Assembly (NCBI RefSeq): GCF_002871345.2
Contig: NZ_CP136964.1
Location: 1,178,001-1,242,000 of the forward strand
Reading direction: 5' to 3'
DNA: 64,000 nt
DNA from: Nosocomiicoccus massiliensis
GTDB lineage: Bacteria > Bacillota > Bacilli > Staphylococcales > Salinicoccaceae
The translations under genes and the position numbers were made by a program. The notes beneath the pieces are model-generated. The model did no database searches and had not been told where the DNA came from. It was given only the letters and a program-made list of their open reading frames with translations. Of this stretch, positions 27,906 through 53,696 are shown in pieces. Each line of letters begins with the position of its first letter. The first letter of the stretch is position 1.

Positions 27906-28130
27906 AATCAAATAACATTTACTTGTGAGATGCAGTAACATTCGCCCTACTTTTAGAGAGACTATGGTTGGTGAGAATAGTTAGTAAGCGATGTGAATTT
28001 CTATCTCTATTACAGCAAGTAAACGAAGTTCACTTCGTTTTAAAATGAGATGCATACGTTAAACGTATGTAATTAGGGTGGCAACGCGTATATAACCACG
28101 TCCCTTTTGTATATTGGGGCGTGGTTTTTT
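27906..28130 (+). promoter_or_regulatory. T-box leader of serS
   Basis: The hallmark T-box sequence AGGGTGGCAACGCG lies at 28075-28088, where ACC of uncharged tRNA pairs with GGT. Stem I is bounded by TAGAGAG and its partner CTCTA (about 27953 and 28012), and the loop just before the latter holds TTCTA, giving UCU (Ser) as the likely specifier. The terminator CCACGTCCC/GGGGCGTGG followed by TTTTTT is at 28096-28130. Low charging of serine tRNA should favour read-through into serS. Confidence 0.92.
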
Positions 28131-49163: not shown

Positions 49164-50660
49164 ATGACTGAGGCAGACAATCAGCATAAAGATATTATTG
49201 TGATTGGTGCGGGTATTATAGGTACTTCGGTAGCGACGATGCTTTCAAAAGTGAGCCCGGACTGGAATATCGATATGTATGAAAGATTAGATGAAGCGGG
49301 AATCGAGAGTTCGAACGAAAAGAACAATGCAGGTACAGGTCACGCTGCACTCTGTGAGCTAAACTATACTGTGGAACAAAAGGACGGCTCTATCGATGCT
49401 TCTAAAGCAGAAGTGATCAATGAGCAATTTGAACTGTCTAAGCAGTTCTGGGGCAGTTTAGTGAAAAATGGTGATATTTCTAACCCTGAAGAGTTTATTC
49501 AGCCACTACCGCATATTAGTTTTGTAATGGGCCCAACGAATGTTGAGTTTTTACGTAAACGTTATGAAAAACTTAAAACGATTCCTATGTTTGATAATAT
49601 CGAGTACACAGAAGATATTGAAACGATGAGAGAATGGATGCCATTGATGATGCGAAATCGTAAACCAGGTCAGTTAATGGCAGCGAGTAAGATCGATGAA
49701 GGAACTGACGTAAACTATGGTGCTTTAACACGTAAATTAGCGGCATATTTAGAAAAGCAATCAAATGTCTCTTTAAAATATAACCATGAAGTAATCGACT
49801 TAACTCAAAGAGAAGACGGCAAATGGGAAGTTCTCGTAAGAAATAGAGCGACGAAAGAGAAGTTCGTAAAAGTAGCTGATAAAGTGTTTATCGGTGCTGG
49901 GGGTTACTCTATTCCACTACTTCAAAAGAGTGGCATTGCTCAAAGGCAAAATGTCGGAGGTTTCCCTATTACTGGTCAATTCTTAGCGTGTAAAAATAAA
50001 GATATTATTAAACAACATCACGCGAAAGTTTACAGTAAAGAGCCTCTAGGTAAGCCACCAATGACTGTACCGCATCTCGATACACGTTATATTGATGGTG
50101 AAAGTACGTTATTATTTGGACCATATGCAAATATCAATCCTAAATTCTTAAAATACGGTTCGTTCTTTGACTTATTTGGCTCAGTAAAACCGTATAATAT
50201 TACAACGCTATTATCATCTGCAGCTAAAAATATACCGCTCATTAAATACTCGATTGACCAGATGGTGATGACTAAAAAAGGTTATATGAACTACTTAAGA
50301 ACATTCATACCCGATGCAAAAGATGAGGACTGGAAATTATATACTGCTGGTAAACGTGTTCAAGTGATTAAAGACGATGATGAATACGGGAAAGGCTACG
50401 TCGCATTCGGAACAGAAGTTGTGAATTCTGATGATCACTCTGTTATTGCAGTATTAGGAGAATCACCAGGTGCTTCAATATCATTCTCTGTAGTGCTTGA
50501 AGCATTAGAGAAAAACTTTAAAGAAGACCGTGAGCTCTGGGAACCTGCAGTTAAAAAGTTAGTTCCATCATATGGCAAATCACTGATTGATGACGAAAAA
50601 CTGATGAGAGAAACGCGTAAAGAAACATCTGAAAACTTGAATTTAAATTATTATAATTAA
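49164..50660 (+). CDS. Malate:quinone or lactate:quinone oxidoreductase
   Basis: 498 residues. FAD-binding VIGAGIIGTSVATML (about 12-26), the family blocks ERLDEAGIESSNEKNNAGTG, HAALCELNYT, AASKIDEGTDVNYGALTRKL, LDTRYIDGESTLLFGPYANI and GESPGASISFSV near 435 define the Mqo family. Length and many residues resemble staphylococcal Mqo2, later shown to be the lactate:quinone oxidoreductase Lqo, so either substrate is possible. It is a peripheral membrane enzyme that passes electrons to menaquinone. The 33-codon gene at 50682 probably shares its transcript. Confidence 0.93.
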   Translation: MTEADNQHKDIIVIGAGIIGTSVATMLSKVSPDWNIDMYERLDEAGIESSNEKNNAGTGHAALCELNYTVEQKDGSIDASKAEVINEQFELSKQFWGSLVKNGDISNPEEFIQPLPHISFVMGPTNVEFLRKRYEKLKTIPMFDNIEYTEDIETMREWMPLMMRNRKPGQLMAASKIDEGTDVNYGALTRKLAAYLEKQSNVSLKYNHEVIDLTQREDGKWEVLVRNRATKEKFVKVADKVFIGAGGYSIPLLQKSGIAQRQNVGGFPITGQFLACKNKDIIKQHHAKVYSKEPLGKPPMTVPHLDTRYIDGESTLLFGPYANINPKFLKYGSFFDLFGSVKPYNITTLLSSAAKNIPLIKYSIDQMVMTKKGYMNYLRTFIPDAKDEDWKLYTAGKRVQVIKDDDEYGKGYVAFGTEVVNSDDHSVIAVLGESPGASISFSVVLEALEKNFKEDRELWEPAVKKLVPSYGKSLIDDEKLMRETRKETSENLNLNYYN

Positions 50661-50681: not shown

Positions 50682-50783
50682 ATGAAAAAAACAATCGTTA
50701 TTTTAGGCGTTATTTCGGCGTTACTCGTAGCGTTTAAGTTATATCAAGACAAGGTCAATGAAACGCCAAATATAGAATATTAA
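50682..50783 (+). CDS. 33-residue membrane peptide downstream of mqo/lqo
   Basis: An ATG with AGAGG 11 bases upstream opens 33 codons: MKKTIVILGVISALLVAFKL (one hydrophobic helix with a basic start), then YQDKVNETPNIEY. It is 21 bases after mqo and is followed by a terminator hairpin six bases beyond its stop, so it fits neatly in the mqo transcript. It is too hydrophobic and well positioned to dismiss, but I know no family for it; a signal-anchored small protein is the simplest reading. Confidence 0.6.
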   Translation: MKKTIVILGVISALLVAFKLYQDKVNETPNIEY

Positions 50784-50788
50784 TATAT

Positions 50789-50821
50789 AAGAGGCCGTGA
50801 TAATTTTTATCACGGCCTCTT
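50789..50821. terminator. Perfect 14-base hairpin shared by mqo and the SAM riboswitch
   Basis: AAGAGGCCGTGATA and TATCACGGCCTCTT pair perfectly around a 5-base loop. Neither side has a long T run (TTTGCATT on plus, ATATATTA on minus). On the minus strand its first five bases, AAGAG, are also the closing strand of the riboswitch P1 helix, as expected of a SAM-I expression platform. Confidence 0.7.
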
Positions 50822-50915
50822 TGCATTCAGTATAAACTGTTGGAATTGGCACATCGCTAAAAGCTGTTGCCGGAGTTTCACAGGGCCAAATCCCTCCACT
50901 CACTCTTAATAAGAG
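50817..50915 (-). promoter_or_regulatory. SAM-I (S-box) riboswitch aptamer, orphan
   Basis: Read on the minus strand the element starts CTCTTATTAAGAGTGAGTGG and contains AGGGATTTGGCCCTGTGAAA, CTCCGGCAACAGC, GATGTGCCAATTCC and CAGTTTATACTG in the order and spacing of the S-box consensus (kink-turn, the GGCCC...UGAAA-C core and the GUGCCAAUUCC strand). P1 can form between CTCTT and the AAGAG at 50817-50821. A TATAAT box lies 32 bases upstream. No gene follows on this strand: beyond the hairpin lie the small peptide gene and mqo on the opposite strand. Confidence 0.9.
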
Positions 50916-50946
50916 AACTATTCTATTGATTAAAAATATATAGCAT

Positions 50947-51036: not shown

Positions 51037-51073
51037 AAAATAAGAAGTAACGCCATACGTTACTTCTTATTTT
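51037..51073 (-). terminator. Terminator of the ABC-F gene
   Basis: AAATAAGAAGTAACG and CGTTACTTCTTATTT form a 15-base perfect stem around CCATA; its upstream arm holds the ABC-F stop codon. Confidence 0.85.
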
Positions 51074-52539
51074 ATCTTTTTAAGTTTTTTGTTTTCTATC
51101 TTATATACTTCGTCTGCGACATTTTCTAAAAATTCTACATCATGTGATGTTAGAAGTACTGTGCCTGGATATGTGTTTAAATATGTTTCTAGAACATTTA
51201 TTGTATCAATATCTAGATAATTTGTTGGTTCATCTAGTATTAGCAAGTTATCTCCAGATATTAATGTTAGAAATAACGATACGCGTACCGCTTCTCCTCC
51301 ACTTAATGTTGAAATACTTCTTTCAAAATCGTTGTCTGTGAATTTTAAATCATTGAGCATTTCTTTTAGTAGGTACTTTGAAACAGACGTATGTTTTGAT
51401 ACGTATTCTAATAATGGCTCTGTGCGGTGCTTAAATTCTAGATAACTTAATTGATTATAGAAGCCAAGCTCTGCATTTTTAGAAAATGTGATGATATCAA
51501 GTTTATTATTAAAAGCTCCTTTTACATATTCAATAATAGTCGTTTTACCGGTACCATTGTTCCCTTTTAATGCCGTAATTTTTCCACGACTGATTTGTAA
51601 GTTTAGAGATTCTATAAGTAATTTGTTTCCTGCTGTAATATCAATATAGTTAAATATAATTGGAAAACGGTTATGATCTGTCTTGATGTCAGCTTCTTCA
51701 AATATCGGTAGTACTTTTTCTTCAGGTAATTTTATTTCTTCCATACTATCGATACGGTTCTGCATGTTTTTCGCAGATTGCATAATTCCTTTTTGTACCG
51801 TCCCTTTTTCTTTTGTCATTCGTGAGGATAGAGAACGATGATTTGCTCCCTTTCTACCGATTAATATTTTTTCAGCATGTATTTTTGCGTCACTTATTGA
51901 TGCTTCCAATCTTTTGATTTCTTTATCTTGTATTTCTTTTTGATGATAGAGTGATTCACGCTCTTTTTCGATTTCTCTTTTATAATCATCATAATTTCCG
52001 CTAAATACATGTATTGACTGTTCTTCAATTGACCATACTTCATTTACACATTCATTTAATAGACGTCTATCGTGTGAAATTATTAAAGTTGCACCGTCAT
52101 AATTTTTAATTGTACGTATTAAAAATTCGATACCCTCTTTGTCTAAATGAGATGTCGGTTCATCAAGTATAAGTAAATCATAGTGCGAAGAGAATACTTC
52201 TAATATACGTAGTTTTGATAGTTCTCCGCCGCTAAACTCTGATGTACCATAAGGTATGTTTAATTCACTAAGTAATCTTCCATCAAAATTGAAGTCATAT
52301 GGAATATTATCAGATACTTGTTCTAAGTAGCCTATGTTATTGGTGTTTAACTGGATATGACCTTGTGTCGGTTTAATTTCCTCTAAAATTAATTGTGCTA
52401 AAGATGATTTACCTGCACCGTTTTCACCAATTAAACCAATTCGACTACTCTCTTTAATTTCTAACTCATCAGTGTCGAATAATAAGTAACTGCCAAAGTC
52501 GAGTGCGATTTTGTTTAATTTAACGAGAACTTTAGTCAT
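51067..52539 (-). CDS. ABC-F family ATPase (ribosome-protection type)
   Basis: 490 residues, no membrane segments, two ABC domains: Walker A LIGENGAGKSS (about 36-46), signature EFSGGELSKLR, Walker B LLILDEPTSHLDKEG, then second Walker A LKGNNGTGKTTI (about 323-334), signature STLSGGEAVRVSL and LLILDEPTNYLDIDT. A charged linker of about 80-100 residues (180-285) joins them, the region that reaches the ribosomal exit site in antibiotic-resistance ABC-F proteins. Overall design resembles Msr/Vga/Lsa-type proteins more than housekeeping EttA, but resistance cannot be claimed from sequence. It follows the upstream gene by 20 bases. Confidence 0.88.
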   Translation of the reverse strand: MTKVLVKLNKIALDFGSYLLFDTDELEIKESSRIGLIGENGAGKSSLAQLILEEIKPTQGHIQLNTNNIGYLEQVSDNIPYDFNFDGRLLSELNIPYGTSEFSGGELSKLRILEVFSSHYDLLILDEPTSHLDKEGIEFLIRTIKNYDGATLIISHDRRLLNECVNEVWSIEEQSIHVFSGNYDDYKREIEKERESLYHQKEIQDKEIKRLEASISDAKIHAEKILIGRKGANHRSLSSRMTKEKGTVQKGIMQSAKNMQNRIDSMEEIKLPEEKVLPIFEEADIKTDHNRFPIIFNYIDITAGNKLLIESLNLQISRGKITALKGNNGTGKTTIIEYVKGAFNNKLDIITFSKNAELGFYNQLSYLEFKHRTEPLLEYVSKHTSVSKYLLKEMLNDLKFTDNDFERSISTLSGGEAVRVSLFLTLISGDNLLILDEPTNYLDIDTINVLETYLNTYPGTVLLTSHDVEFLENVADEVYKIENKKLKKIK

Positions 52540-52559: not shown

Positions 52560-53696
52560 TTAAGACCAGAAAGGTTGATCCCATACTTTTAATGATTGTC
52601 CTAAGTTTTTCTCTTGTGCTGATTTATAGAGTTCATATCCCCATGATATGTCTTCTACAGCCATTCCTCCTGCGAGGAAGACGATTTTTTCTTTGTCGTC
52701 TTTACGCCCTTCTTTTTTACCACTGACAACGTCACCAAGATCTGTGATGCTTTTTTCGTCGAGTTTTTCTTCTTTTACGAGTCTAAATACCTGTCCGCCG
52801 ATACCGTAGTTTAAGTCTTTAGAAACTCCTTTTGTACCGCTTTGTAGGTATTCCCACTCTTCCCATTCTTCACCTGTTTCTTTGTGCATTTCCCAGTTAT
52901 CCATAACGACTGTGTTATTTAGTATGAAGTCATCACTGAGGTTTGCTTCTCCGGAAAGTAAAAGAAGAGATCCGTCTTTTAAGTACTCTTCTTTAATTTC
53001 TGGACGAACAGCACCTGATGCTGCGACGTTTATGACGTCTGCTTCTTTGACTGCATCTTCTAAGGAGCTTGATATCACTGTTTCTACGTCGTGTTCTTTT
53101 TTAAGGTTATTTGAGAATTTTTCTGCTTGTTGTTCGTTAATGTCGAAGATGTTGACTTGTTTGATATTTTTATTTGCTTCTAAAATTGCAAGTGTACTTG
53201 ACCAACTGATGACCCCTGCTCCGATAATTGCGAGAGTATGTGCTTCTTTTGAAGCAAGATACTTTGTAGCAACTGCTGGGACTGCACCTGTACGTGTCGC
53301 ACTGATTAAATTTGCACTCATATATGCAAAAGGTGCACCAGTGTCTGCATCGTTTAACGTGATCATTAAAACGGAACGTGGTAATCCTTTTTCTTTGTTT
53401 GCTACGTTTGATCCGTACCATTTTTGTCCCGTAATATTATATTTCCCACCTAAATATGCGTTCATTGACATAAATCGACGGTCTGGCCCTGCGACTGGCA
53501 TATTCTCAGTACGCTTTTCTTTTGGAAACCATAGTTGACTGCCGTGACTGTTTTCTCTCGGTCCTCCCATAATGTAATCTTTTTCACCAAGTAAACGGAA
53601 CACTTCTTCGATTGTGTCGACGCATTTTTTTGCATCTAACACACCTGCTTCAACTAAATCTTCTTCGGATAAAAATAAAAACTCCACTTTTGACAT
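52560..53696 (-). CDS. Ornithine cyclodeaminase/mu-crystallin family protein (tyramine oxidase subunit B type)
   Basis: 378 residues. The family's NAD(P)-binding region TLAIIGAGVISWSSTLAILE (about 154-173), SANLISATRTGAVPAVATKYLASKEAH just before it and VIVNVAASGAVRPEI-like VINVAASGAVRPEIKEEYL after it identify the group. The N-terminus (EFLFLSEEDLVEAGVLDAKKCVDTIEEVF) and the GGPRENSHGSQLWFPKE block match proteins annotated as tyramine oxidase subunit B. The biochemical role is not secure. AAGGAGGAGA precedes the ATG, and a cre-like site lies just upstream. The ABC-F gene follows on the same strand. Confidence 0.8.
   Translation of the reverse strand: MSKVEFLFLSEEDLVEAGVLDAKKCVDTIEEVFRLLGEKDYIMGGPRENSHGSQLWFPKEKRTENMPVAGPDRRFMSMNAYLGGKYNITGQKWYGSNVANKEKGLPRSVLMITLNDADTGAPFAYMSANLISATRTGAVPAVATKYLASKEAHTLAIIGAGVISWSSTLAILEANKNIKQVNIFDINEQQAEKFSNNLKKEHDVETVISSSLEDAVKEADVINVAASGAVRPEIKEEYLKDGSLLLLSGEANLSDDFILNNTVVMDNWEMHKETGEEWEEWEYLQSGTKGVSKDLNYGIGGQVFRLVKEEKLDEKSITDLGDVVSGKKEGRKDDKEKIVFLAGGMAVEDISWGYELYKSAQEKNLGQSLKVWDQPFWS

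Follow-up and report, generated by a model that had tools for sequence, protein, structure and literature searches.

Genes and features of the locus

The stretch of DNA analysed here (the window) comprises 64,000 nt of the Nosocomiicoccus massiliensis genome (contig NZ_CP136964.1, positions 1,178,001 to 1,242,000). Its minus strand carries at 50817-50915 a SAM-I (S-box) aptamer, which matches the Rfam family RF00162 with 62.1 bits against a gathering cut-off of 44.4 (E 5.4e-12 over the whole window) and in which nucleotides 50915-50817 cover the model from its first to its last position. The initial annotation had placed a well-conserved S-box at exactly these coordinates and had proposed a covariance search with the Rfam family as a check; the score obtained is far above the cut-off and rules out a chance match to the SAM family. 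Helix P1 is formed by five pairs (CUCUU/AAGAG), with two inner pairs that Rfam flags as non-standard. The aptamer is preceded on the same strand by a conserved 5' leader, UAAUCAAUAGAAUAG (50918-50932), which in the intact cassettes described below forms one strand of an additional helix, P0 (46 cassettes), and has lost its 3' partner here.

The aptamer lies antisense to the end of a plus-strand operon. The first gene of this operon (49164-50660), previously read as mqo, is probably lqo, which encodes a lactate:quinone rather than a malate:quinone oxidoreductase, as its best NCBIfam family is L-lactate dehydrogenase (quinone) (NF040844, 971.8 bits, cut-off 915). NF040844 is an exception model for lactate:quinone oxidoreductase, and a second lqo-type copy, 50% identical, is present elsewhere in the genomes of three relatives. 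The gene that follows (50682-50783) had been recognized as coding for a 33-codon peptide, and this reading is supported by its assignment to the SE2200 family of small proteins (NF040843, 63.7 bits, cut-off 30). The aptamer is flanked on its other side by a minus-strand gene for an ABC-F family ATPase (51067-52539; NF000355, 404.1 bits, cut-off 380), and beyond it, at 52560-53696, by a PRK06199-family gene of full length (tyramine oxidase subunit B model), of which only ~190-250 bp at its end match the corresponding place in the genomes G001 and G003. The window also contains a T-box leader at 27914-28108, with 96.5 bits just above the cut-off of 93.

Downstream of the aptamer, the listing of minus-strand ORFs holds only short frames (up to 59 aa) antisense to the neighbouring genes, in agreement with the earlier statement that no gene follows the aptamer on its own strand; an RNA that continued in this direction would enter the complement of SE2200 and of the lqo/mqo-type gene. 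A trace of the protein encoded by the intact cassettes was searched for in the whole 64 kb and none was found (best tblastn E 0.42).

The terminator hairpin of the neighbouring operon

Immediately after SE2200 there is a perfect hairpin of 15 bp (14-15 bp; 50789-50821), with an energy of -23.5 kcal/mol when folded alone. On the minus strand its 5' arm contains the five bases AAGAG (50821-50817) that constitute the 3' strand of P1, so that the overlap between hairpin and P1 pointed out in the initial annotation is real. The proposal that this hairpin acts as the expression platform of the aptamer did not hold. Homologous hairpins occupy the same place in the relatives G003 (locus L005), with the aptamer at a distance of ~500 bp, and G002 (locus L006), with no aptamer near, and therefore the hairpin is the terminator of the lqo-SE2200 operon; its position in both relatives, together with the fold energies, rules it out as a native platform. 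When P1 is formed, a hairpin of 10 bp and -13.2 kcal/mol remains.

An S-box cassette with a small-protein gene in Staphylococcales

In other genera, aptamers 82-94% identical to that of the window over ~95-130 nt, which share its 5' leader, belong to an intact unit in which the S-box is followed by a terminator (GCTCTTCTTAATT..GAAGAGCTATTTTATTT in the locus L009), a ribosome-binding site and a small ORF. A pattern scan performed with the aptamer alone on named genomes, including two metagenome bins, detected 21 loci in Staphylococcus, Jeotgalicoccus, Salinicoccus, Phocicoccus and Lacicoccus, some of them overlapping the set used for aptamer identity; an ORF of 57-63 aa is present in 21 of 21, and a terminator and a ribosome-binding site could be recognized by eye. 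Starting from the protein (~58 aa), homologs were detected at 66 places (e.g., L012, L015, and L017) in 62 of 157 Staphylococcales genomes, representing 9 of 14 genera. A SAM aptamer was found upstream at 48 of the 50 places checked (17/17, 18/20 and 13/13 in three subsets, the last by sequence), the exceptions being L128 and L131; the 16 places left aside are weak matches and include all those of three genera, and aptamer and protein were seen together in six of the nine genera, those covered by the places checked. The protein gene is interrupted by an in-frame stop at four of the 66 places (G030, G137, G138, and G101), and the aptamer is kept in the first three of them, while none was found at that of G101.

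A search of protein databases grouped the small protein in 58 clusters without a Pfam domain, for which all printed source names were hypothetical or uncharacterised, and a scan against Pfam and NCBIfam assigned it to no family. The predicted structure consists of three helices (mean pLDDT 93.2, pTM 0.72) and gave no significant match in the PDB either by sequence or by fold. A search of plasmid records gave no match. In the three genomes of the genus, a first search for the protein, made with no positive control, was negative, and a second one, based on an alignment that contained the 25-residue remnant of G003 described below, likewise detected it in none of the three, so remnants of this length evidently escape it. 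In terms of identity, the RNA of the cassette is better conserved across genera (82-94%) than the protein. By analogy with other S-boxes, the aptamer should switch the unit off in the presence of SAM. In Staphylococcus aureus a SAM riboswitch has been described before the gene for homoserine O-acetyltransferase (PMC3386247). No paper describing a unit of S-box and ~58-aa protein was retrieved in a literature search, and passages of two articles that mention SAM riboswitches (PMC6848492; PMC3766115) do not refer to it.

The intact cassettes contain an extra helix, P0, between the 5' leader AAATAAAATAG and the complementary U-tract of the terminator, CTATTTTATTT (L009:1500-1660 and 45 other cassettes). 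The nine pairs of P0 are formed in 98.3% of the cells of the alignment of 46 cassettes, a count made on 46 of the 47 distinct cassettes with omission of the most divergent one, L129. Changes on both sides were observed at three of the nine pairs, which account for all 9 double-change cells of the structure, vs a mean of 1.1 in shuffles that ignore relatedness; six of the nine cells are located at the outermost pair. In the minimum-energy folds of G003 and L009, the leader and the 5' strand of P1 are paired with the 3' arm of the terminator and its U-tract. As modelled, this pairing of leader and terminator would lock the antiterminated state or could instead seal the terminated RNA.

The SAM pocket, P1 and folding of the RNA

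The nucleotides A6, U7, A87 and U88 are among the highly conserved ones of SAM-I riboswitches, as stated in PMC3764141, and U7 and U88 direct their O4 atoms toward the sulfonium of SAM, according to PMC6914780. Using a numbering that we transferred from the Rfam alignment, the aptamer of the window keeps A6 and U7 and has changed the other two, the equivalent of A87 (50823, minus strand) being C and that of U88 (50822) being A. The other distinct cassettes (71 loci were collapsed to 49 distinct sequences, including the window) retain both A87 and U88 in 48 of 48 cases, and so do 11 of 11 other S-boxes found in three genomes of the genus. The 3' strand of P1 reads GCAAAGAG in the window vs GAU(A/G)AGAAG in the other cassettes, with few exceptions. 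Together with the two non-standard pairs marked by Rfam, these differences contradict the intact core attributed to this aptamer in the initial annotation, and the RNA of the window would bind SAM poorly or may have lost SAM binding.

When the aptamer of the window is folded alone, the five outer pairs of P1 have probabilities of 0.69-0.85, vs 7-8 pairs, nearly all of them at 0.84 or above, in G003 and L009. In the fold of the full RNA the probability of P1 in the window drops below 0.05 because the 15-bp hairpin takes its 3' strand. The full-length folds of G003 and L009 do not show P1 above 0.05 either, because without SAM the antiterminated fold wins, so the absence of P1 at full length does not discriminate between the window and the cassettes. 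Complementary segments of antiterminator type (P1 3' strand and terminator 5' arm) are found in G003 and L009 and are absent from the window, where no expression platform of its own exists and the P1 bases belong to the hairpin of the neighbour.

The region upstream was compared with that of G003. The ancestral -10 box, TATAAT in G003, has changed to TATATA in the window (50937-50942, minus strand). The TATAAT box noted in the initial annotation is indeed present, at 50952-50947 of the minus strand, upstream of the ancestral position and at a site where G003 has no TATAAT; it is one of 82 in the window (~105 in shuffles), and a pattern search detected no promoter-like pair on the minus strand near the aptamer. 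G003 displays such a pair (TTCAGA-17-TATAAT with TG, 10/12), as does L009 (10/12), although pattern matches of this kind are weak evidence since shuffles yield several.

The same locus in relatives

The comparison of this locus in related genomes, which had been suggested as a check, revealed that the adjacency of aptamer and lqo is conserved neither in G003 nor in G002. In G003, which belongs to the same genus, lqo, SE2200 and the homologous hairpin follow each other as in the window, and the aptamer lies ~500 bp beyond the hairpin. The intervening segment contains a disrupted merR-like gene (a name given by eye; a Pfam scan of one fragment gave no MerR match and other families only below the cut-off), a 25-codon ORF preceded by its ribosome-binding site, and the terminator that belongs to the cassette. 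Compared with G002, the merR-like gene of G003 (L005:994-1338) carries an in-frame stop and a replaced start region, which disrupt it. The first 25 codons of the ORF match homologs of 70 aa, after which the sequence runs out of frame and is truncated into the merR-like fragment; the 25 residues are identical in P0055, P0056 and P0058 (25/25) and nearly so in P0057 (24/25). These 70-aa proteins are intact versions close to the remnant of G003, whose own copy is broken, so the small-protein cassette decays within the genus. G002, a genome 86% complete, has the hairpin after SE2200 and lacks an aptamer nearby; no close copy of the aptamer was detected elsewhere in it. In the nearest genome, G001, which has 29% of sampled words in common with the window, the contig with lqo ends inside the gene, and the gene found on the opposite flank is another one, judged by eye to encode a surface protein.

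From the leader to P4 the RNA of the window is identical to that of G003 at 99 of 99 nt, in spite of the fact that the lqo genes of both differ at 62 of 178 four-fold sites (35%). For comparison, the S-boxes that precede metK and metN in G003 share, flanks included, 91% and 93% identity with their counterparts in G001. In the Jeotgalicoccus-type genomes G008 and G012, the aptamer studied here is 94% identical over ~96 nt, and the metK/metN S-boxes are 75-85% identical over 89-124 nt. These values show strong selection on the aptamer, or its transfer, before the gene was lost; they are not evidence of selection after the loss because intact genes persist among close homologs. A recent deletion explains the 99-nt identity, as a retained function would.

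Probable origin of the gene-less aptamer

The window differs from the 48 other cassettes in that it has no terminator of its own, no U-tract partner, no ribosome-binding site and no ORF, everything past P4 being missing. We consider with a probability of about 0.85 that the aptamer is the decaying remnant of a small-protein cassette that was under SAM control and has been lost, and that a deletion left it stranded at the lqo-SE2200 terminator. The ancestral unit would have consisted of a SAM-I aptamer, a terminator/antiterminator and the gene for a three-helix protein of ~58 aa (70 aa in versions like that of G003). With the deletion, the gene and its expression platform would have disappeared, as would much of the P1 3' strand and, probably, the merR-like gene adjoining the cassette in relatives, and the aptamer would have been fused to the operon terminator, from which the present P1 would have borrowed its five pairs by chance. 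The motif CTTCTT is common to the lqo terminator and to the P1 region of the cassette, and the sequences fit a deletion that may have been mediated by this microhomology. If it is still made, the RNA would be ~150 nt long, would end at the hairpin and would control nothing in cis. The aptamer, the cassette in other genomes, the assignment of the hairpin to the neighbour and the changes at A87/U88 and in the -10 box are shown by the data; we infer the deletion as an event, the loss of SAM binding and the lack of function.

The initial annotation had considered a relic, an antisense RNA to mqo and a trans-acting RNA. The idea of a relic is the one retained here, with a different lost partner, in all likelihood the gene of a ~60-70 aa protein to which no function is assigned, and not a met operon. 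The latter was rejected since the 11 further S-boxes detected in the genus lie upstream of genes of apparent metK or MetN type and are different aptamers, weakly similar to this one; NCBIfam, applied to four of the 11 downstream genes, placed metK above its cut-off and gave MetN as the best family, below the cut-off, for the other three.

The 99-nt identity counts against a relic because an old loss of the gene would require selection on the aptamer alone. It is the main argument for a gene-less S-box RNA retained for a role in trans, in which promoter, aptamer and borrowed terminator would produce a short and stable RNA able to pair with mRNAs encoded elsewhere, as SreA does. The strength of the hairpin, the higher conservation of the RNA than of the protein across genera and the persistence of the aptamer at three of the four stop-bearing places would also agree with such a role. 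Nevertheless, the intact 70-aa homologs imply that the identity can predate the gene loss, the changes at A87/U88 and in the -10 box, the failure to find a promoter pair and the loss of the P0 partner speak against it, and SreA itself heads a transporter operon (PMC8079631), so this explanation is considered unlikely. A related view, that the aptamer is selected as a free-standing short RNA with the terminator of the neighbour as its 3' end, and that the variant with A87 changed to C and U88 to A in an otherwise intact aptamer senses a ligand other than SAM or acts as a decoy or trans RNA, appears very unlikely to us.

Regulation of the lqo/mqo-type operon by a SAM-controlled antisense RNA, comparable to the S-box of ubiG-mccBA in Clostridium acetobutylicum, is suggested by the orientation of the aptamer and its position at the 3' end of the operon, and also by the mutually exclusive formation of P1 and of the base of the hairpin, which follows from the five P1 bases sitting in the latter. 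To our knowledge, the oxidation of lactate or malate has no link with SAM. Neither of the two relatives shares the arrangement (~500 bp lie between in G003 and no aptamer is there in G002), and the hairpin should stop the RNA ahead of the gene. P1 would weaken this hairpin rather than favour it, and since 10 bp remain paired when P1 is formed, read-through would be small and its sense opposite to that of normal S-boxes. With A87/U88 changed as well, an antisense function is highly improbable. Finally, an assembly error at the junction, with an intact cassette elsewhere in the genome, is barely credible even though the gene-less junction is known from a single assembly and the contig of G001 also breaks here, given the single-base differences in the P1 3' strand, the -10 box and both arms of the hairpin, which are unlike those of joined contigs of G003 type, and the lack of any trace of the protein in 64 kb.

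Relation to known systems and significance

The aptamer of the window keeps the whole architecture of SAM-I riboswitches (RF00162) and departs from them in having neither a gene nor an expression platform of its own, a replaced P1 3' strand and changed A87/U88. With the cassettes it has in common the aptamer and the 5' leader, in contrast to the terminator, U-tract partner, ribosome-binding site and ORF, which it has lost. As in SreA/SreB of Listeria, the RNA would be a short S-box RNA that ends at a terminator; however, SreA, for which an mRNA target is known, is described as a terminated leader RNA that heads a transporter operon (PMC8079631). The location resembles that of antisense-acting riboswitches such as the ubiG-mccBA S-box, at the 3' end of an operon and antisense to it, and falls within the distance used in a survey of such arrangements (less than 500 nt from the 3' end of a gene; PMC9943018). 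It differs from them in the absence of a conserved pairing with a gene, of a known metabolic link and of a switching platform, and neither a target consistent with the ligand nor synteny was found in the two relatives. The survey judges candidates by genome context and metabolic sense and regards those beside pseudogenes as fortuitous events (PMC9943018), a class that is the nearest to the present case, in which the gene is entirely gone.

The reading of this locus as a relic implies that nothing more than a deletion is needed to create an "antisense riboswitch", which calls for caution in surveys that count such arrangements. It also points to a recurrent intact unit in which a SAM-I riboswitch precedes the gene of an uncharacterised three-helix small protein.
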